Source: Acidisoma cellulosilyticum
GTDB lineage: Bacteria; Pseudomonadota; Alphaproteobacteria; Acetobacterales; Acetobacteraceae
Assembly (NCBI RefSeq): GCF_020621385.1
Contig: NZ_JAESVA010000005.1
Location: forward strand, 372,001-436,000
Direction of reading: 5' to 3'
DNA length: 64,000 nucleotides
Below, in pieces: positions 20,672-28,613 of the stretch. The notes beneath the pieces were generated by a model. It was not told the origin of the DNA. It worked only from the letters and a program-made list of their open reading frames with translations, and ran no database searches. A program made the translations under genes and the position numbers. Positions within the stretch are counted from its first letter, which is position 1. Each line of letters starts with the position of its first letter.

Positions 20672-21613
20672 ATGCGCGGCGATAATATGCTCGCGGAGTT
20701 CGGCATGGGTGAAAGCCCGGCCGATCACCCGGTTCCGGCCCGCATTCTTGGCGAGATAAAGTTGCCGGTCGGCGGCATTGATCCAGGCTTCCGGCGGGAT
20801 ATCCAGCGTGCAAGGGGCGGTCGCGACGCCCAGGCTCACCGTCACGAAGGCCGCGGTATCGGAGGCATCATGCGGAATGCCGAGAGCCGAGACCCGCATG
20901 CTGATCGTCTCGGCGATCTCCATCGCTTCCTCATGCCCGATATCGGGCAGGATGCAGGCGAATTCCTCGCCGCCATAGCGCACCGTCACATCGGCCGCGC
21001 GTCTGGCCGCCCGGTGCAAGGTCGCTGCCACCTGCACGATGCAGCGGTCTCCGACCATATGGCCGTAAAGGTCGTTGAAGCGCTTGAAGAAGTCGATATC
21101 GAGGATGATGACAGAAAGCAGGCCGCCGGTCACGGATAGGCGTCTGGTTTCCCGCGCCAGGCTCTGCTCAAGCTGCCGACGGTTGCCAAGCCCGGTGAGC
21201 GCATCCGTCACGGCCAGCGTCGCCAGCTGATCGCGCATGCGCTTCAGTTCAAGATGGTTGCGCACCCGCGCCTGCACGATGGCGGGGGAGATCGGCTTGG
21301 CGATGTAGTCGATCGCGCCGAGCGCGAGACCTTCCAGCTCCGCCCCCTCATGGCCCAAGGCGGTCGTGAAAATGATAGGAATATCGGCGAGCAAGGAATC
21401 GGATTTGATATGCTTGCAGACCTCATAGCCATTGGTGCCGGGCATCAGCACGTCGAGCAGCACAAGATCCGGCATCACGTTGCGCAGCAGTTCGTAGACT
21501 TCGTCGGCCGAGGTCGCGAAGCTGATGTCGTAGTCATCTTCCAGGGCAGCGCTGAGAATCTCGATATTGGAGACTTCGTCATCGACGATCAGAATGACAG
21601 GGCGCTTGTTCAT
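20669..21613 (-). CDS. response regulator with GGDEF domain (diguanylate cyclase, PleD/WspR-like)
   Basis: 314 residues. Receiver domain 1-120 with phospho-acceptor Asp54 (LVLLDVLMPG) and KP at 106-107; GGDEF domain about 130-300 with active GGEEF at 214-218. The product inhibition site RxxD (RAAD, 205-208) lies exactly five residues upstream, so feedback by cyclic di-GMP is expected. It should make c-di-GMP on phosphorylation. The start overlaps the stop of the upstream hybrid kinase (ATGA), so that kinase is its likely partner. The last codon is provided by an inserted repeat. Confidence 0.93.
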   Translation of the reverse strand: MNKRPVILIVDDEVSNIEILSAALEDDYDISFATSADEVYELLRNVMPDLVLLDVLMPGTNGYEVCKHIKSDSLLADIPIIFTTALGHEGAELEGLALGAIDYIAKPISPAIVQARVRNHLELKRMRDQLATLAVTDALTGLGNRRQLEQSLARETRRLSVTGGLLSVIILDIDFFKRFNDLYGHMVGDRCIVQVAATLHRAARRAADVTVRYGGEEFACILPDIGHEEAMEIAETISMRVSALGIPHDASDTAAFVTVSLGVATAPCTLDIPPEAWINAADRQLYLAKNAGRNRVIGRAFTHAELREHIIAAH

Positions 21614-24474
21614 GGCAATATGTCCTCGGGCACCACGGCGGATGCCGTCAACTCCTCAAGATAGGCAAGTGCCTTGGGGTAATCGAGAGCGGACAGCGCC
21701 TGCCGGATGGGATCAAGCCGCAGACCTTCAGGCGAATTGCCCAGACGTGCCTCGACGGTTTCGAACATTTTCCGCGCCTTCAGGCTGCGTCTTTGCAGAA
21801 GCTGTTGCAGCTCGGCCAGTTCGGACGCGACCGGCGTATAGTCCAGCGTGCCGGCGCGCAGCAAAGCCGGTGCCACGGGCGCGACAGGGGATTGGCTGCG
21901 CAGGCTTTGCGCGGCGGCGATGGCGGGCTTCATGGCCTCGTCCAGGCGCTGCGTCAGTCGGGGCAGGTCGTCCAGGACTCGCTTGGCGAGCGCGTCTTCC
22001 AATTGCCGCGCGCATTCCGCGACGTCGCGAATTTCCAGCGCGCCGGCGGTGCCCTTCAATGTATGGGCGCTCCTCCGGGCCTCGTCCCATTCGCGGTCGG
22101 TGATCTGGTTCTCCAGCACCGACACGGCATCCGCGAATTTATAGCTGAAATCGATGATCAGCTTGCGCAGCAGTTTCCGTCGGCCGTTCAGACGCGCCAG
22201 CGCCGTGCCGAGATCGAAGGGCGGCAGCTCCGCCGGCAGCATGTCGTCGGCAAGCTGCGGCGGTGCGACCTCCGCTGCGGGTGCGGGTGCGGCCGCCGTG
22301 GCGGCTGTCCTGTCACGGCCGCCGGGCCTGAGCCAGCGCGACAGCTTTTCCAGCAGCAGCGGCGGTTCGATCGGCTTGGTCGAATGGTCGTTCATGCCGG
22401 CATCCAGGCAGTTCTGCCGCTCCTGCTCATAGGCATGGGCGGTCATCGCGATGATCGGCAGGTCTGTCGCCGAGAAGGTCTGCCGGATGCGCTTGGTCGC
22501 CTCTATCCCGTCCATCTCGGGCATCTGCACATCCATCAGAACGGCATCATAGCGCGTCGGCGCGGCCTCGATCATCTCGCAGGCAATGCGCCCGTTCTCT
22601 GCCTGCTCCACCACCAGACCGGCATCGGTCAGGATTTCATAGGCCAGTTCGCGGTTGATCTCGTTATCTTCGACGAGCAGCAGAACGGCACCGCGATAGG
22701 GGGCGGCGATCATCACCGTTTCTTCCGGTGCCATCGTCTGCCGTAGTTCCTCGCTGCCAAAGATCGCGGCCAGGGTTTCCAGAAGAATATCGGTATCCAA
22801 CGGCTTGACGAGGAAGGCCGCGATACCGGCGGCACCGGCGGCGGTGATGGCTTCTTCGCGACTATAGGCCGTCACCATCATGATCGTCGGCATTTTGGGA
22901 ATGCTATGATCCTGACGCATCTGATTGACCGTCTCGATGCCGTCCAGCCCGGGCATGCGCCAGTCGAGCAGAACGAGGTCGAAGGGTTTGCCGCTGCTAT
23001 TCGCGGTGCGCAGCATGCTCAAAGCCTCGCTGCCGGACGCGGCCAGATCCAATTGGCTGAACCAGGGGCTGAGGGTTTCGGACAAAATCTCGCGCGAGCC
23101 GGCATTATCATCCGCGATCAGAACGCGCAGGTTGCGCAGCTGACTGAGGGTCGCGTTAGAGGGCGCGGCGATCTTGGTGGACAAGGACAAGCGCGCGGTG
23201 AAGGAGAATTGGCTGCCGATACCCTGCTGGCTTTGCACGGTCAGCGTGCCGCCCATCAACTCCACCAGCTGGCGGCTGATGGAAAGGCCCAGACCGGTGC
23301 CGCCGAAGCGCCGGGTCATGGAGGTATCGGCCTGGGTGAAGGCCGTGAAGAGCTGGTTCACCTGGGCCGGCGTCATGCCGATGCCGCTGTCCCGCACTGA
23401 GAATTCCAGCAGCAGGTCGTCGCCTTCCTGCCGGATCACCCGCACCGAGAATTGCACATGCCCGGCATCGGTGAATTTGATGGCGTTGCTGACGAGGTTG
23501 GTCACCACCTGGTTCAGCCGCAGCGGGTCGCCGATCACCGTATCCGGCGTATCGGCGCTGATGTTGAACTCAAGCTCGATATTCTTCTCGACAGCGCGCA
23601 GCGCCAGCATCTGCCGCACGGAATCAAGCGAATGGCGCAGCTGGAAGCTCGTCCGCTCCAAGACCAGCTTGCCGGCTTCGATTTTGGAGAAGTCGAGAAT
23701 GTCGTTGATGAGATCGAGCAGGCTGGTCGTCGCCGATTTGATCTTGACCAGATAGTCCCGCTGCTTGGGCGTCATTTCCGTGCGCAGCGCCAGATGGCTG
23801 AAGCCGAGGATGGCGTTCATCGGTGTGCGGATTTCATGGCTCATATTTGCCAGGAACAAGGATTTGGCGATGCTCGCCGCCTGGGCGTCCTTCGTCCGCT
23901 CGGCGACCGTTTCCTCCAGCGTCTCGTTATGGCGCTGGATCTCCGCGCTCATCTGCTCGACGCGGGCGAAGCTTTCCACCAGCCGGTTGCTGACCCACAT
24001 CAGCACGCTGCCTTCCAGCAAGACGATGACCGCATGGAAGACGACACGCGCGATACCGCCGCCATTCGGAAAGACCGCAAAGGGCAGCAGCAGATCGAGT
24101 GCCAGATGATGAAGCATAATGGCGACAGAGGCGAGCAGGATGGCCCGCCAGTCGCACCAGGCAATCAGCAGCGCCAGACATGCGAAGAAATACATATGCA
24201 TGTCGATCTGCCAGGGATTGCCGCGCAGCAGATAGACGAGAAGCGCCGGCTCCCCCACCAACGCTACGGCCGAGATATAGCGCGTGGCCGGGCCGATGCC
24301 GCTCATCTTCCAGCTCAGATGATAGGCGCCGGCCAGAACCACGGCGAAAAGCGTCGGCAGCAGGATCGGCTCGCCGAGACCCCAGGATACGATGACGATT
24401 ATCGGCACGTGACCCCAGAGCATCAGGGCCATCAGCTGTCCGAATCGGGTCCTGAGAGCGAGGATCTCAGCCAT
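21610..24474 (-). CDS. hybrid sensor histidine kinase (membrane domain-HisKA-HATPase-REC-REC-Hpt)
   Basis: 954 residues. About six hydrophobic helices in 1-165, a coiled linker 165-205, HisKA with phospho-His213 (NMSHEIRTPMN), HATPase with RLNQVVTNLVSNAIKF (about 319-334) and GGTGLGLSIS (391-400). A first receiver has Asp504 (LLDWRMPG), a second has Asp648 (LMDVQMPEMDG). A C-terminal Hpt domain has His804 (SAHTLKGTAG). This is a complete internal phosphorelay, probably passing phosphate to the coupled GGDEF regulator. No periplasmic sensor domain is evident; the helices may sense directly. Start ATG 24474 is one base after the stop of the small upstream gene. Confidence 0.93.
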   Translation of the reverse strand: MAEILALRTRFGQLMALMLWGHVPIIVIVSWGLGEPILLPTLFAVVLAGAYHLSWKMSGIGPATRYISAVALVGEPALLVYLLRGNPWQIDMHMYFFACLALLIAWCDWRAILLASVAIMLHHLALDLLLPFAVFPNGGGIARVVFHAVIVLLEGSVLMWVSNRLVESFARVEQMSAEIQRHNETLEETVAERTKDAQAASIAKSLFLANMSHEIRTPMNAILGFSHLALRTEMTPKQRDYLVKIKSATTSLLDLINDILDFSKIEAGKLVLERTSFQLRHSLDSVRQMLALRAVEKNIELEFNISADTPDTVIGDPLRLNQVVTNLVSNAIKFTDAGHVQFSVRVIRQEGDDLLLEFSVRDSGIGMTPAQVNQLFTAFTQADTSMTRRFGGTGLGLSISRQLVELMGGTLTVQSQQGIGSQFSFTARLSLSTKIAAPSNATLSQLRNLRVLIADDNAGSREILSETLSPWFSQLDLAASGSEALSMLRTANSSGKPFDLVLLDWRMPGLDGIETVNQMRQDHSIPKMPTIMMVTAYSREEAITAAGAAGIAAFLVKPLDTDILLETLAAIFGSEELRQTMAPEETVMIAAPYRGAVLLLVEDNEINRELAYEILTDAGLVVEQAENGRIACEMIEAAPTRYDAVLMDVQMPEMDGIEATKRIRQTFSATDLPIIAMTAHAYEQERQNCLDAGMNDHSTKPIEPPLLLEKLSRWLRPGGRDRTAATAAAPAPAAEVAPPQLADDMLPAELPPFDLGTALARLNGRRKLLRKLIIDFSYKFADAVSVLENQITDREWDEARRSAHTLKGTAGALEIRDVAECARQLEDALAKRVLDDLPRLTQRLDEAMKPAIAAAQSLRSQSPVAPVAPALLRAGTLDYTPVASELAELQQLLQRRSLKARKMFETVEARLGNSPEGLRLDPIRQALSALDYPKALAYLEELTASAVVPEDILP

Positions 24475-24886: not shown

Positions 24887-25278
24887 CGGACGCGCAAGTC
24901 TCCCGCAGCGGCTTCGGCCGGCGTTACAGCGTTAAAAACAGACCAGTCAGGGTGTAGAGGGTTCATAAAGCAACCGGATTAACCCACTTGGCTAGGTGGT
25001 GTTAGCTGGGCTTCATCAAAAACTCATCTGAAATTTCGCACGCCCCGGCTGTCCCGCGCTTTTCGAAAACGAGGGAGACCAAGGACTAGGGAAATTTTGG
25101 TGTTTTTGGAGAGGGAAACAGCCGGCCTAGAGCATCTTCACACAGTCAGATGGAATCATCTGACTGTGTGAAGATGCTCGCAAAAACAATAACCTAGAGC
25201 GGTATCTGTGAGCGTAAGCGAGCAGGAAACGCTTTAGGGCCGGATAGACGAGGCGATCTTTCCGGGTCTTGGCGCGGA
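24887..25278. other. intergenic region with palindromic repeat
   Basis: 392 bp. It should contain the promoter of the leftward kinase operon near 24900-25000. The right part is filled by a composite palindromic repeat (25127-25237) that may terminate the leftward lipoprotein gene. No plausible gene is seen. Confidence 0.6.
25127..25237 (+). repeat. composite palindromic repeat, copy 2
   Basis: 111 bp, matching 12691-12797. The first block is a perfect 23-bp stem (25130-25152 with 25157-25179) around the loop GAAT. The second block begins AGAGCGGTATCTGTGAGCG and ends GAAACGCTTTAG. It lies downstream of the lipoprotein gene, so it can act as a strong hairpin in that transcript. Confidence 0.85.
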
Positions 25279-25977
25279 TCAGCTTTCCTCGTCGGTCGGC
25301 CAGACCCATCCGGCCGAGCGGTAATAGCGATGCAATTGCTTCACGATGGCGGTCGCGGTGCTGTTCGTGGGTTTGCTCAGCCCGCCGTTCAGATTCGTCA
25401 CGACGTCGATGCCGCCGCCGATGGCAAGGTGAATAAGATTGCCGGTGGCAAGTGCGATGCCGCCGGGCAGGATCAGCCCCGGCTTGATGCCGGTATCGCT
25501 GGCCGTATCGAAGGCAGTGAGGGACGAATGCGCTGACGGCAGGGTGGTTTCCAGATCGGCGCGCGCCTCCAGCTTGGCGCTGCCCATGCCGAAGCCGATC
25601 AGGAAACGCTCGGCGCGGCTGCCGGGGTCCGCCTGCTGGATCGAGACATGCAGTACGGCCGCGCCCGGTCGCGCGCTGCCTGCTGTGTAGGGGATGGCCG
25701 CGATATGCGCCTTGCCGAGCCGTCTCACCACCGCTGCCTGCAATTGCGGTGCGACAGCGGCCGCTGCCCTTGTCTGATCCGCGTTCGGCATCGGCGCGGT
25801 ATCGACCGCGACGAGGATTTCGCTCGGTGCCGGGGTGGTGGTGCTGACCGAGGCGATATTGCTGACATGCGCGCCGGCGCAGGATGACAGCAAAAACAGC
25901 GACAGGCCGGCCAGCGCGGCGCGGCCAGGCTTCCGTTTAAGGGCAGCGGGCATCGTCTTGGGAAGTGAGTCTTGCAT
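25279..25977 (-). CDS. lipoprotein, DUF4410-like
   Basis: 232 residues. Lipobox LFLLSSC about residue 34 after a basic N-terminus and hydrophobic helix, so it is probably lipid-anchored in the envelope. The mature part shows the pattern of DUF4410 proteins: a central VLHVSIQQADPGSRAERFLIGFGMGSAKLEARADLET and a Gly-rich IKPGLILPGGIALATGNLIHLAIGG. Function unknown. I chose ATG 25977 because AGGGA lies 6 bp upstream and because the candidate ECF promoter at 26005-26032 would start transcription near 25998, excluding the longer frame. Confidence 0.75.
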   Translation of the reverse strand: MQDSLPKTMPAALKRKPGRAALAGLSLFLLSSCAGAHVSNIASVSTTTPAPSEILVAVDTAPMPNADQTRAAAAVAPQLQAAVVRRLGKAHIAAIPYTAGSARPGAAVLHVSIQQADPGSRAERFLIGFGMGSAKLEARADLETTLPSAHSSLTAFDTASDTGIKPGLILPGGIALATGNLIHLAIGGGIDVVTNLNGGLSKPTNSTATAIVKQLHRYYRSAGWVWPTDEES

Positions 25978-26004
25978 GCGAGGTCCCTGCGTCATCATGA
26001 ATTA

Positions 26005-26032
26005 TGATACGCAGCCTGCGAAATCATCCCCC
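26005..26032 (-). promoter_or_regulatory. candidate ECF-sigma promoter of the lipoprotein gene
   Basis: On the minus strand GGGGGAT (26026-26032), a 14-bp spacer and CGTATCA (26005-26011), 28 bp before the chosen start codon. The same two boxes with the same spacing precede the ECF sigma gene. The -35 box overlaps one arm of a hairpin (26024-26057, ATCATCCC/GGGATGAT ends) that could terminate the preceding small gene. Confidence 0.6.
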
Positions 26033-26065
26033 GCGGCCGATGCCGCGCGGGATGATAGGTCACCG

Positions 26066-26455
26066 TCAGGGTGTGTAATAATAAGCCGGCGGCGGCGCAT
26101 AGACCACCGGCGGCGGCGCGGCATAGATAACCGGGGGCGGTGCCACATAGGTCGGATAGGCCGGGTGCGAAGCCGCCGCGATACCAACGGCGGTGCCGAC
26201 AGCCAGACCCGCGACACCCGCCGCCGCAACGGCGCCGCCCGCATAGCAGCAAGGGCCATGCCCATAATAGCCATGGCCGTAGTAACCATGCCCATAATAG
26301 CCGTGGCCGTAATAACCGCCACCGCCCCAATGGTTGAAGGTCGCCGTATTGCCGTGCGGGCCGGTATAGCGCCAGCCGCCGGCCATGGCCGGGCCGGCGA
26401 ATGCCGCCAAAGTCAGCGCCGAGACAACGGTCGCGATAGAGAGCTTCTTAAACAT
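26066..26455 (-). CDS. secreted Gly/Tyr/His-repeat protein
   Basis: 129 residues. Signal peptide MFKKLSIATVVSALTLAAFAGPAMA with an AMA cleavage site. The mature protein begins GGWRYTGPHGNTATFNHWGGG, followed by four consecutive GYYGH units, then GPCCYAGGAVAAAGVAGLAVGTAVGIAAA (a glycine-zipper-like hydrophobic stretch) and a Pro/Tyr-rich tail APPPVVYAPPPAYYYTP. His clusters plus a Cys pair suggest metal binding; the glycine zipper suggests membrane contact. It lies 53 bp after the EF-hand gene and is probably co-transcribed with it. No named family is recognised with certainty. Confidence 0.75.
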   Translation of the reverse strand: MFKKLSIATVVSALTLAAFAGPAMAGGWRYTGPHGNTATFNHWGGGGYYGHGYYGHGYYGHGYYGHGPCCYAGGAVAAAGVAGLAVGTAVGIAAASHPAYPTYVAPPPVIYAAPPPVVYAPPPAYYYTP

Positions 26456-26508
26456 GATATGTCTCCAGCATCCTTGATGATGGGATAGGTTTGATCAGGA
26501 AACCGCGC

Positions 26509-26826
26509 TTACGGCGCGTTCCAGTCGTTCTGATCCAGATAACCCTTGTTGCCTTGGTCCCGTTTTGCGAAACGCTTTTGCAGGATCGATTGTTGCTGTT
26601 GTGGCGTCATTGCCTTGAAACGCTGTGCAAGGGGACCGTTCGCATTCGCCAGCATCTGCATGGCGTAGGCGTCGAATTCCGGGAAGGTGACGCGCCCGTC
26701 ATGGTTGGCGTCGGCGACAGCGAAATTGCCCTTCATCTGCGCCAGGGCCATGGGTGCCAAGGCAAGCGTGCCGGCAAAAGCGAGAAGCCCCAGCGTCCCG
26801 ATGCGGCGGGTCTTGTGTGCAGTCAT
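26509..26826 (-). CDS. secreted EF-hand protein
   Basis: 105 residues: signal peptide ending ALAPMALAQ (about 1-30), then one canonical 12-residue calcium loop DANHDGRVTFPE (39-50) followed by FDAYAMQML, and a degenerate second loop DQGNKGYLDQND. A Gln-rich segment (TPQQQQSILQKRF) lies between. Such small EF-hand proteins often accompany ECF/metal-sensor modules in Proteobacteria (family knowledge). ATG 26826 is chosen for GGAGA 5 bp upstream. A TGATACG-type promoter box is 32 bp before the start. Confidence 0.82.
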   Translation of the reverse strand: MTAHKTRRIGTLGLLAFAGTLALAPMALAQMKGNFAVADANHDGRVTFPEFDAYAMQMLANANGPLAQRFKAMTPQQQQSILQKRFAKRDQGNKGYLDQNDWNAP

Positions 26827-26857
26827 GAGAGTCTCCGTCATTGGTCTTGACGCAGAC

Positions 26858-26895
26858 TGATACGGAAGCGGGAGAGCGATGCGACATCATCCCCC
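26858..26895 (-). promoter_or_regulatory. candidate ECF-sigma promoter of the EF-hand gene
   Basis: Minus-strand CGTATCA (26858-26864) as -10 box, in the same position relative to the gene as in the lipoprotein gene. GGGGGAT occurs at 26889-26895 but with a 24-bp spacer; at the expected 14-bp spacing the sequence is GTCGCAT, a 4/7 match. So the -10 is clear and the -35 uncertain. Confidence 0.45.
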
Positions 26896-26919
26896 GCTCG
26901 CCTCTCTCATTCGTGACCG

Positions 26920-27411
26920 TCAGGGATCGAAGCCCGTTTCGTGCATGCTTTTGCGCGTCGCATCGCGGTCGGCGATCAATTTGCGCCGCCCTTCCGGAGA
27001 GACAGCGCCCAGCGCATCGACCAGCGGGCCACGGAAGACGTCGAAAAACTGGTTCCAATCGCTGCGCCAATTATTCAGGGATTGGCTGACGGCCGCCGGG
27101 TCATAGGGTTCCGCGCTAATCGCCTGTCCTACGGCATGCCGAGCCGAAGCGAGCCTTTGGGCCGATCCGGCAAAGACCGATGATTCGCTTTTGATGACCT
27201 GCCGGAAGGTTTTCGCATCCTTGGGCGGCAGGCTGTGTTCCGCCGTCGCCAGCGCCTGGGCGAGTGGATTGTCGAACCGCCGCTGGCTCTCAACCCGCCA
27301 GATGTGACTGCCGATCAGGGCGACCAGAAACAGATTGATAATGACCGAGACCGACAGCGCGATCTTGGCACGGGTCCAGCAAGGGGGGGTGCGTAGGACC
27401 ATGGCCATCAA
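26920..27411 (-). CDS. periplasmic heavy-metal sensor/resistance protein (CnrX/Spy-like)
   Basis: 163 residues: short cytoplasmic N-terminus, one transmembrane helix (about 16-37, IALSVSVIINLFLVALIGSHIW), then a helical periplasmic domain of the heavy-metal-resistance type (LPPKDAKTFRQVIKSESSVF, LVDALGAVSPEGRRKL). In CnrYXH-type systems such a membrane-anchored sensor detects metal or envelope stress and controls release of an ECF sigma factor. Its start overlaps the anti-sigma stop by 4 bp, and the ECF gene is two genes upstream, supporting that role. Metal ligands cannot be assigned: few His or Cys are present. Confidence 0.8.
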   Translation of the reverse strand: MMAMVLRTPPCWTRAKIALSVSVIINLFLVALIGSHIWRVESQRRFDNPLAQALATAEHSLPPKDAKTFRQVIKSESSVFAGSAQRLASARHAVGQAISAEPYDPAAVSQSLNNWRSDWNQFFDVFRGPLVDALGAVSPEGRRKLIADRDATRKSMHETGFDP

Positions 27412-27893
27412 AAGGGCAGGACGTGGAGGGGAGAGGTCTGCAGCAAGCTCAGCACCCCTTCCGATATGCCGGACGGTGCCGAAATGGCCCCGATCAGAAA
27501 CCCGCCGGCGACGGCGATGCCGCCGGAGGTCGCAAGGCCCAGCCAGCCGAGATTGGCCTGCACGACAGCAAAGCCGTGGTTCAGAGACACCAGGCCCGGC
27601 CAGCGCCGGCGCTGGCCGCGGGCGACGCCGTCCCGCGCGATATGGCCCGAGACGCCCGCGCGCAGGCGCGCCACGGCCGCCGCTTCCTCGGCCTCAGTCC
27701 ACAGCGCGGCATGCTCCGCCCGGCTCATGGCATCAAATAGCGCGTCGGTTTCGGCAGCGGAGGCGAGGATGGCCTGAGCGTCCGCGGAGACTCGCAGCAA
27801 AGCCTCGGCATCCCGTCGCTCGTCTGCGGGCCAGCGCAGCAGGTCGGCGCCATAACTGTCCGAGAGCGCCTTCAGCCGGTTGATCGTCATCAT
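27408..27893 (-). CDS. probable anti-sigma factor, membrane-bound
   Basis: 161 residues. Cytoplasmic N-terminal part (MMTINRLKALSDSYGADLLRWPADERRDAEALL) resembling short alphaproteobacterial anti-sigma domains, then one transmembrane segment about 115-140 (ANLGWLGLATSGGIAVAGGFLIGAI) and a short outside tail. It begins 13 bp after the ECF sigma gene and overlaps the metal-sensor gene, the usual sigma/anti-sigma/sensor order. A ZAS zinc motif (HxxxCxxC) is absent. ATG 27893 is chosen with AAAGGGGG upstream. Confidence 0.75.
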   Translation of the reverse strand: MMTINRLKALSDSYGADLLRWPADERRDAEALLRVSADAQAILASAAETDALFDAMSRAEHAALWTEAEEAAAVARLRAGVSGHIARDGVARGQRRRWPGLVSLNHGFAVVQANLGWLGLATSGGIAVAGGFLIGAISAPSGISEGVLSLLQTSPLHVLPF

Positions 27894-27906
27894 TCGCGGC
27901 CCCCTT

Positions 27907-28464
27907 TCACGTCTGTCTTTGAATAGTGTCACGCAAAAAGGCACGCGCGCGTGCCAGCAGTCTTTCGATGGCCTTGGCCGATAGACCCAAGGTCCGGCCG
28001 GCCTCCGCGCCCGACAATCCCTCATCATAGACAAGTGTCATGGCGGCGCGCTGCCGGGCAGGCAATTGGTGGAGAGCCGCCAGCAGCACCTTGTTCCGCT
28101 CGGTCGTGGCGAGCTTGTCCTCGGCGCTGTCGCTGGGGTCAGGCGCGTCGTAATCCTCCGGCAACTGACCGGGCTGGATACGCCGACGATGATCGATGCA
28201 GAGATTGACGATGATGCGATACAGCCAGGTGCGAAACTGCGCGCGCGCGGGGTCAAACCGCGCGATTTGAGACCAGGCGCGCAGCATGGCTTCCTGCGTG
28301 ATATCCTCGGCGATGAGACGGTCGGGGATGACGCGCGCCGCGACACGCAGGGCGAAGGGCCCGTGCCGCGTGACGATCTCGTCGAAAGCCCGGCGGTCGC
28401 CCTTGCCGGACCAGCCAGCCAGGGCTTCATCTGTCGCGTCCCGATAGGTAAGCGGACCCGTCAT
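27907..28464 (-). CDS. ECF-type RNA polymerase sigma factor
   Basis: 185 residues with sigma region 2 (FDEIVTRHGPFALRVAARVIPDRLIAEDITQEAMLRAWSQ, and FRTWLYRIIVNLCIDHRRR) and region 4 (LPARQRAAMTLVYDEGLSGAEAGRTLGLSAKAIERLLARARAFLR). No C-terminal extension. ATG 28464 with AAGG 8 bp upstream is preferred; ATG 28512 is possible but lacks a ribosome site. Its own upstream region carries the same GGGGGAT/CGTATCA boxes as downstream genes of the cluster, implying autoregulation. Confidence 0.93.
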   Translation of the reverse strand: MTGPLTYRDATDEALAGWSGKGDRRAFDEIVTRHGPFALRVAARVIPDRLIAEDITQEAMLRAWSQIARFDPARAQFRTWLYRIIVNLCIDHRRRIQPGQLPEDYDAPDPSDSAEDKLATTERNKVLLAALHQLPARQRAAMTLVYDEGLSGAEAGRTLGLSAKAIERLLARARAFLRDTIQRQT

Positions 28465-28584
28465 TTGGGGCGCCTTGCCCCAAAGACCCGCCTGGGCGCG
28501 CAAAATCGACATACCATTCAGCCATGACCCTGCTGCTCATCCAGCCATCACGCCGGGCGAGACTGCCATGCGTGGGTGCGAGCC

Positions 28585-28613
28585 TGATACGGGGTGGGGC
28601 AGGCAATCCCCCC
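28585..28613 (-). promoter_or_regulatory. candidate autoregulatory ECF promoter
   Basis: Minus-strand GGGGGGAT (28606-28613), 14-bp spacer, CGTATCA (28585-28591), about 120 bp before the sigma start codon. Identical boxes and spacing occur before the lipoprotein gene (26005-26032). Confidence 0.6.

Follow-up and report, generated by a model that had tools for sequence, protein, structure and literature searches.

The stretch of Acidisoma cellulosilyticum DNA analyzed here, 64,000 nucleotides (nt) of contig NZ_JAESVA010000005.1 and referred to below as the window, carries on its minus strand, in order, the genes for an extracytoplasmic function (ECF) sigma factor, a protein of 161 amino acids (aa), a protein matching the Pfam family Metal_resist, an EF-hand protein, a Gly/Tyr/His-repeat protein, and a DUF4410 lipoprotein (Table 1). 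The subject of this report is the motif GGGGGAT-N14-CGTATCA, which precedes the sigma and lipoprotein genes, together with the sigma factor that would recognize it. The identification of the first gene as that of an ECF sigma factor was borne out by Pfam matches to Sigma70_r2 (1.6e-22) and Sigma70_r4_2 (4.7e-13); sigma2 and sigma4 are the only promoter-binding domains in the protein, and its profile matches SigW, CnrH (8.6e-31), and RpoE. Alignment with orthologs places its start probably at M17. The sigma and 161-aa genes are separated by 13 nt, and the stop codon of the 161-aa gene overlaps the start of the Metal_resist (sensor) gene. Directly before the probable sigma ATG lies a TTGGGGC-AAGGC-GCCCCAA stem-loop (window 28464-28485); folding of the sigma leader, stem-loop included, was no better than that of shuffles (z -0.57).

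Table 1. Features of the sigma factor module and its predicted promoters, in the direction of transcription (window coordinates)
Feature	Position	Strand	Remarks
Predicted sigma-dependent promoter, sigma operon	28585-28612	-	GGGGGAT tgcctgccccaccc CGTATCA, exact
ECF sigma factor gene	27907-28464	-	Probable start M17 (28464), first ATG 28512
Probable membrane anti-sigma factor, 161 aa	27408-27893	-	Four predicted N-terminal helices, then a hydrophobic stretch
CnrX/CpxP-like periplasmic sensor (likely fold), N-terminal membrane helix	26920-27408	-	Metal_resist, 4.1e-16
GGGGGAT copy before the EF-hand gene	26889-26895	-	24 base pairs from CGTATCA; not in the original prediction
CGTATCA box before the EF-hand gene	26858-26864	-	Perfect -10
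Secreted EF-hand protein	26509-26826	-	One canonical loop, DANHDGRVTFPE; probable start 26826, first ATG 26841
Gly/Tyr/His-repeat secreted protein	26066-26455	-	Homologs in orthologous loci
Predicted promoter, DUF4410 lipoprotein gene	26005-26032	-	GGGGGAT gatttcgcaggctg CGTATCA, exact
DUF4410 lipoprotein	25279-25977	-	PF14366, 3.7e-13; probable start 25977, first ATG 25998

Both promoters of this type, before the ECF sigma and lipoprotein genes, and the CGTATCA box at 26858-26864 had been pointed out in the original prediction, and all were present on the minus strand. The motif was not common genome-wide: the exact pattern occurred at 2 places in the 6,004,381 bases of the genome, before the ECF sigma and DUF4410 lipoprotein genes, and copies with one mismatch were absent. 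Copies with two mismatches numbered 22, of which 19 fell within coding-like reading frames of at least 100 aa, and a relaxed pattern (GGGGRN-N13-16-CGTATCA) found 4 places, two of them the exact pair, versus 2 for the reversed control. Within the window, matches with up to three mismatches were no commoner than chance (3 versus a shuffle mean of 6.4); evidential weight is therefore placed on the exact copies and on their conservation. Further regulon candidates were drawn from the 22 two-mismatch places and the 2 extra places given by the relaxed pattern. All but four (L003, L008, L011, and L098) of these 24 fell within frames of 100 aa or more, and each of the four was rejected as a sigma target: L003 (GGCGGAT, CGCATCA) lies 115 nt before a gene that, from how its start reads, we take to resemble PurH; a 231-aa frame begins 206 nt after L008; no frame follows L011; and L098 lies 80 nt before the gene for a small membrane protein. 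No description of the motif was found in the literature that we looked through, which was mostly without subscription journals; in one paper that contains the letters GGGGGAT, they belong to primers.

Conservation of the motif was assessed by scanning a collection of named genomes, which yielded 29 sigma loci, many of them from close relatives. These span the Acetobacteraceae, including acetic acid bacteria, as well as Roseomonas-like genera, Solidesulfovibrio, a Xanthobacteraceae bin, and a handful of further records. In 24 of the 29, sigma, anti-sigma factor, and sensor all had homologs lying together; two of the remaining five (L073 and L080) end within the anti-sigma gene, and no anti-sigma homolog was detected in the other three (L089, L090, and L093). 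The motif was scored against the window's boxes (14 positions) in the 350 base pairs (bp) before each sigma match and compared with 200 Markov shuffles. A score of at least 11/14 with a spacer of exactly 14 bp was reached in 19 loci (shuffle frequency, 0.005 to 0.040), and L079 had 12/14 with a 15-bp spacer. In six others (L070, L073, L080, L081, L082, and L084), a motif of 12 to 14/14 stood before the co-directional gene or genes ahead of sigma. The motif is thus not absent from the orthologous loci: with its 14-bp spacer, it precedes sigma or the genes leading into sigma in 25 of the 29 (19 plus 6). The spacer sequence varies among the loci, and its length is retained.

The module itself is patchily distributed. 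A sigma match at 1e-40 was found in 35 of 397 Acetobacteraceae genomes, A. cellulosilyticum included, and was absent from its four genus mates; at 1e-45, matches were found in 2 of 385 genomes of the class, again including its own. In the acetic acid bacteria (L160, L161, L163, L164, and L165), the genes for sigma, anti-sigma factor, sensor, a Gly-zipper protein, EF-hand protein, Gly/Tyr/His-repeat protein, and lipoprotein follow one another on one strand, which is the order in the window plus one gene, the Gly-zipper gene. No Gly-zipper match was found at the corresponding place in L162, and L076 gave no EF-hand, Gly/Tyr/His, or lipoprotein match. A contig titled as Microbispora (Actinomycetota), L083, carries a Roseomonas-type module and is possibly misbinned.

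Judged from these sequences, the lipoprotein gene is the best supported predicted target besides sigma, because the motif precedes lipoprotein genes in related loci as well. In acetic acid bacteria, divergent genes for DUF4410-type lipoproteins are preceded by GGGGGA(A/G)-N14-CGTAACA in L072, L074, L077, and L160, by the same motif with a 15-bp spacer in L075 (whose genome is shared with L161), and by GGGGGGC-N14-CGTAACA in L164; in L167, GGGGGAT-N14-CGTAACA precedes a lipoprotein homolog. Of these, the divergent copy in L075, and also the downstream copy in L077, were confirmed as DUF4410. Downstream of the lipoprotein gene in the window is an inverted repeat with 23-bp arms (25130-25179), one arm of which has 39 matches across the genome when 2 mismatches are allowed (17 of them exact), versus none for the reversed control; it is a dispersed palindromic repeat.

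It had also been predicted that the CGTATCA box stands at the same distance from the start of the EF-hand gene as from that of the lipoprotein gene. With first ATGs this fails, because the box ends 16 nt before that of the EF-hand gene (26841), 6 nt before that of the lipoprotein gene (25998), and 72 nt before that of sigma (28512). With ATGs chosen by eye for a preceding Shine-Dalgarno-like sequence, the distances are 31 nt for the EF-hand gene (26826) and 27 nt for the lipoprotein gene (25977).

The EF-hand protein of the window matches EF-hand_1 at 2.9e-5, under the Pfam cutoff, and its Acidomonas ortholog scores above the cutoff. The loop DANHDGRVTFPE follows the canonical pattern D-x-N/D-x-D-G-x-x-x-x-x-E; in an alignment of ten sequences, D-x-N-x-D and the final E are present in all ten and the Gly in nine. 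Identity with lanmodulin was rejected (NCBIfam LanM, 0.019 and 15 bits versus a cutoff of 135). The Gly/Tyr/His-repeat protein matched no Pfam family. The CGTATCA box before the EF-hand gene was confirmed, and the -35 sequence at N14, GTCGCAT (26879-26885), is poor; the combined score of 11/14 was equaled or bettered by 0.42% of 5,000 shuffles of the 80 bp upstream of the gene. The GGGGGAT copy farther upstream lies inside an 18-mer that matches the lipoprotein promoter at 17 of 18 positions around GGGGGATGAT, and the two upstream regions align with a local score of 32 (maximum in 2,000 shuffles, 31); compared with the 14-bp spacer, 10 extra bp separate this copy from CGTATCA. The EF-hand promoter appears to be a diverged copy, the activity of which is uncertain. 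We give roughly even odds to the alternative that the box is an inactive, decayed copy, the sigma promoter alone driving the EF-hand and Gly/Tyr/His genes. The -35 box is either spaced 24 bp away or poor at 14 bp, and acetic acid bacteria have these genes behind sigma, with no such box before the EF-hand gene by the patterns used; on the other hand, the box in the window is a perfect -10, and a motif-like site (11/14, 15-bp spacer) precedes the EF-hand gene of L166. Decay of this box is compatible with the autoregulated circuit that we regard as the best explanation of the locus (see below). Of the local autoregulated regulon first predicted, autoregulation and the lipoprotein target gained comparative evidence, and the sigma and lipoprotein promoters hold well; the third promoter is uncertain, and we are less sure that the EF-hand and Gly/Tyr/His genes have one of their own. 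Their membership in the regulon, also less sure, would rest more on their conserved order with sigma in acetic acid bacteria than on the box.

The 161-aa protein is probably the anti-sigma factor, as had been proposed; this follows from its position, the conserved gene order, and its hydrophobic C-terminal stretch, and its homologs sit between sigma and sensor in related loci. The structural model has a predicted local distance difference test score (pLDDT) of 95 to 98 over residues 1 to 60 and a low one beyond about residue 90. CnrY was not among the fold matches to this model, which says little because few chains were compared, and searching PDB sequences with the profiles of the sensor and the anti-sigma factor turned up no convincing match.

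The prediction of a CnrX-like sensor was upheld by Pfam and by structure comparison. The Metal_resist match of the sensor (59.7 bits) exceeds the cutoff of 29.2, and its model (pLDDT, 88.6), with a predicted helix at residues 11 to 44, combines the helical fold and the membrane anchor of a CnrX-type sensor. In Foldseek, NccX and CnrX took the top ranks (probability, 1.00; E, 0.016 to 0.05; TM-score about 0.4 of the query), with a probability of 1.00 for 4clv and 2y3d but an E of only 0.016 to 0.026. VIA Z scores were 7.3 to 8.0 and were equaled by unrelated helical chains. Structures of the CpxP/Spy/ZraP type (3itf, 3qzc, Spy entries, and 3lay) were also among the matches in these comparisons. 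Because of the Foldseek ranks and the Metal_resist match, a CnrX/NccX/CpxP-like fold is likely for the modeled sensor. Metal sensing in the manner of CnrX is not supported, because the sensors share neither a conserved His nor a conserved Cys column, though three acidic columns are conserved. In an alignment of 23 sensors, examined column by column, the best His column reached 9/23, the best Cys column 3/23, and the best Met column 14/23 (Leu in the window), and 4 of the 23 have no His beyond the membrane part; the conserved acidic positions, with D and E counted alike, are D64 (22/23), E75 (19/23), and D103 (19/23). A hard ion, for example calcium, might bind through these acids.

The genes that follow the motif in related loci bear on what the circuit might respond to. 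Five Solidesulfovibrio loci (L073, L080, L081, L082, and L084) have the motif ahead of a Cys-rich repeat gene that leads into sigma, and four of them (L073, L080, L081, and L082) also have it, at 12/14, before a divergent LTXXQ/Spy-like gene. Cys-rich repeat genes and genes for small secreted proteins, as judged by eye, follow it in L070 and L071/L159, and in L070 it also precedes a fatty acid hydroxylase gene. The A. cellulosilyticum genome gave no match for the Cys-rich repeat protein (PF00839); its absence is not established by this, because the same search was silent in every control genome too. In L069 (2101-4046) and L159 (14466-15358), the gene behind the motif encodes an ATPase domain of the histidine-kinase type, with matches (4e-6 and 2e-5) that fall just short of the Pfam cutoff. 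The neighbors of the window's module that were scanned encode a lipid A-type acyltransferase, a malate/lactate-type dehydrogenase, an ammonium transporter, a hybrid histidine kinase, and a cold-shock protein, and no efflux gene was among them. The hybrid histidine kinase (21610-24474) is large, with receiver and Hpt domains, and no motif link to it was seen.

Envelope stress is the most likely signal, and heavy metal is less likely, because the sensor ligands are missing and the predicted targets in Solidesulfovibrio include a Spy-like (LTXXQ) protein. A heavy-metal sensing system of the CnrYXH type, responding to Ni/Co or other metals with an output that protects against them, would share the logic of sigma, anti-sigma factor, and sensor and would suit the Metal_resist match, the Foldseek ranks of NccX and CnrX, the three acidic columns, and EF-hand and Gly/Tyr/His-rich proteins that could bind metals. 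It would also suit L069, the nearest relative, in which the ATPase-domain gene behind a 12/14 motif is followed by a gene for a HlyD/CusB-type efflux adaptor. We nevertheless consider a heavy-metal system unlikely, given the poorly conserved His, Cys, and Met columns, the sensors free of His beyond the membrane part, and the lack of an efflux pump among the scanned neighbors of the window's module.

A link between the motif and the local sigma factor is suggested by its recognition helix. We examined 62 distinct sigma rows and scored the 34 that had both a readable helix and a site reaching 12 or more. In all 34, base 2 of the -35 box tracked the type of recognition helix: it was G in 12/12 rows with ..KAxERLLAR.. 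helices and T in 22/22 rows with ..R(A/G)LEG.. helices. This correlation fits binding of the promoter by the local sigma factor. The E-G helices fall in one supported group of the tree. No single supported group holds all the Solidesulfovibrio sigma factors, whose placement near alphaproteobacterial ones is weakly supported; these sequences make transfer between phyla likely, and some of the records are bins. It is very improbable that the boxes, as real promoters, are used by a different ECF sigma factor while the local one acts elsewhere: the sigma query has 9 matches in the genome, counting its own, and an ECF sigma cascade has been proposed in Caulobacter (PMC13171946), but the motif accompanies the local sigma factor's orthologs in Solidesulfovibrio too, and the -35 base tracks its helix. 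The module, the motif, their conservation, and the helix correlation are all read directly from the sequences.

We consider it probable that the locus encodes a positively autoregulated circuit of ECF sigma factor, anti-sigma factor, and CnrX-fold sensor that controls small envelope proteins. The sigma factor would be held by the membrane anti-sigma factor, itself controlled by the membrane-anchored periplasmic sensor with its CnrX/CpxP-like fold. An envelope signal at the sensor would release sigma, and RNA polymerase with sigma would transcribe the sigma operon and the DUF4410 lipoprotein gene from GGGGGAT-N14-CGTATCA, creating positive feedback. The EF-hand and Gly/Tyr/His-repeat genes would probably be expressed through read-through and a weak promoter, so that the local output would be a few small envelope proteins and not an efflux pump. 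Sigma binding, autoregulation, inhibition, and the signal are what we infer here.

Several observations weigh against this circuit. The 161-aa protein matched no Pfam or NCBIfam family, and its model resembled the class I anti-sigma domain of RslA (3hug) weakly (probability, 0.38; E, 2.4; Z, 5.0). L085, L086, and L089 have no good site by motif score, L086 showing GTGGGTT-N14-CGTAACC, and, because several loci are close relatives, 25 of 29 does not amount to 25 independent cases. Among the exact motif matches listed, at least 11 in number, 4 are not beside a sigma match. As for the helix, 28 of the 62 rows were left uncompared (27 with a best site below 12, and L152, with GTGGGAT, lacking a readable helix), and the 34 scored rows make up essentially two clades, so that the events are few and the match between helix and -35 box may reflect a single one. 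Finally, the adaptor of L069 speaks against the lack of efflux as a rule, because it follows a motif-preceded gene, and is the main fact against ranking envelope stress above heavy metal.

More tentatively, and in our view less likely than not, the modules could represent a widely scattered ECF class in which a CnrX-type metal sensor turned into a general envelope sensor without His/Cys ligands, base 2 of the unusual G-rich -35 box switched together with a change of one recognition-helix residue from Arg to Gly, and the whole was passed, along with its promoter language, between Acetobacteraceae and sulfate-reducing Desulfovibrionaceae. If true, this would supply a sigma factor paired with a promoter whose -35 box is distinctive, a natural experiment on how a change in the recognition helix re-targets sigma, and, for acetic acid bacteria, an envelope-stress regulon open to testing.

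Described systems, cited here from the parts of the sources available to us, share some of these features. An early promoter rule for ECF sigma factors called for AAC in the -35 and CGT in the -10 box, and such rules no longer define them (PMC8103513); the -10 box here has CGT, but the predicted -35 boxes, GGGGGAT or GTGGGTT, lack AAC. In Caulobacter, the ECF sigma factor SigV and the periplasmic EF-hand protein CaBP activate each other (PMC13171946), which resembles the present link between an ECF sigma factor and an EF-hand protein; the cabp promoter differs (-35 GGAAA, -10 CGTTCA), and the available part of that source makes no mention of a CnrX-like sensor. An Azospirillum brasilense operon of RpoE8, a hypothetical protein, and a periplasmic heavy metal sensor, raised upon RpoE6 overexpression (PMC12826043), has the same three-gene arrangement, going by its authors' annotation and not by sequence comparison. 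The circuit logic is that of CnrYXH/NccYXH of Cupriavidus metallidurans (PMC7689651), which likewise combines an ECF sigma factor, a membrane anti-sigma factor, and a membrane-anchored, helical periplasmic sensor of the same likely fold. However, the metal ligands of CnrX include Met123, which is needed for signaling (PMC7689651), and the sensor here has no conserved His or Cys and, at its best Met column, a Leu in the window; CnrY is of the two-helix class II anti-sigma type (PMC7406223), whereas four N-terminal helices are predicted here; and CnrYXH serves a resistance-nodulation-division (RND) efflux operon, whereas the predicted local targets here are small envelope proteins. CpxP, Spy, and ZraP share the likely sensor fold, and in Solidesulfovibrio one predicted target is an LTXXQ protein; unlike these periplasmic proteins, the sensor described here keeps its membrane helix and accompanies an ECF sigma factor.

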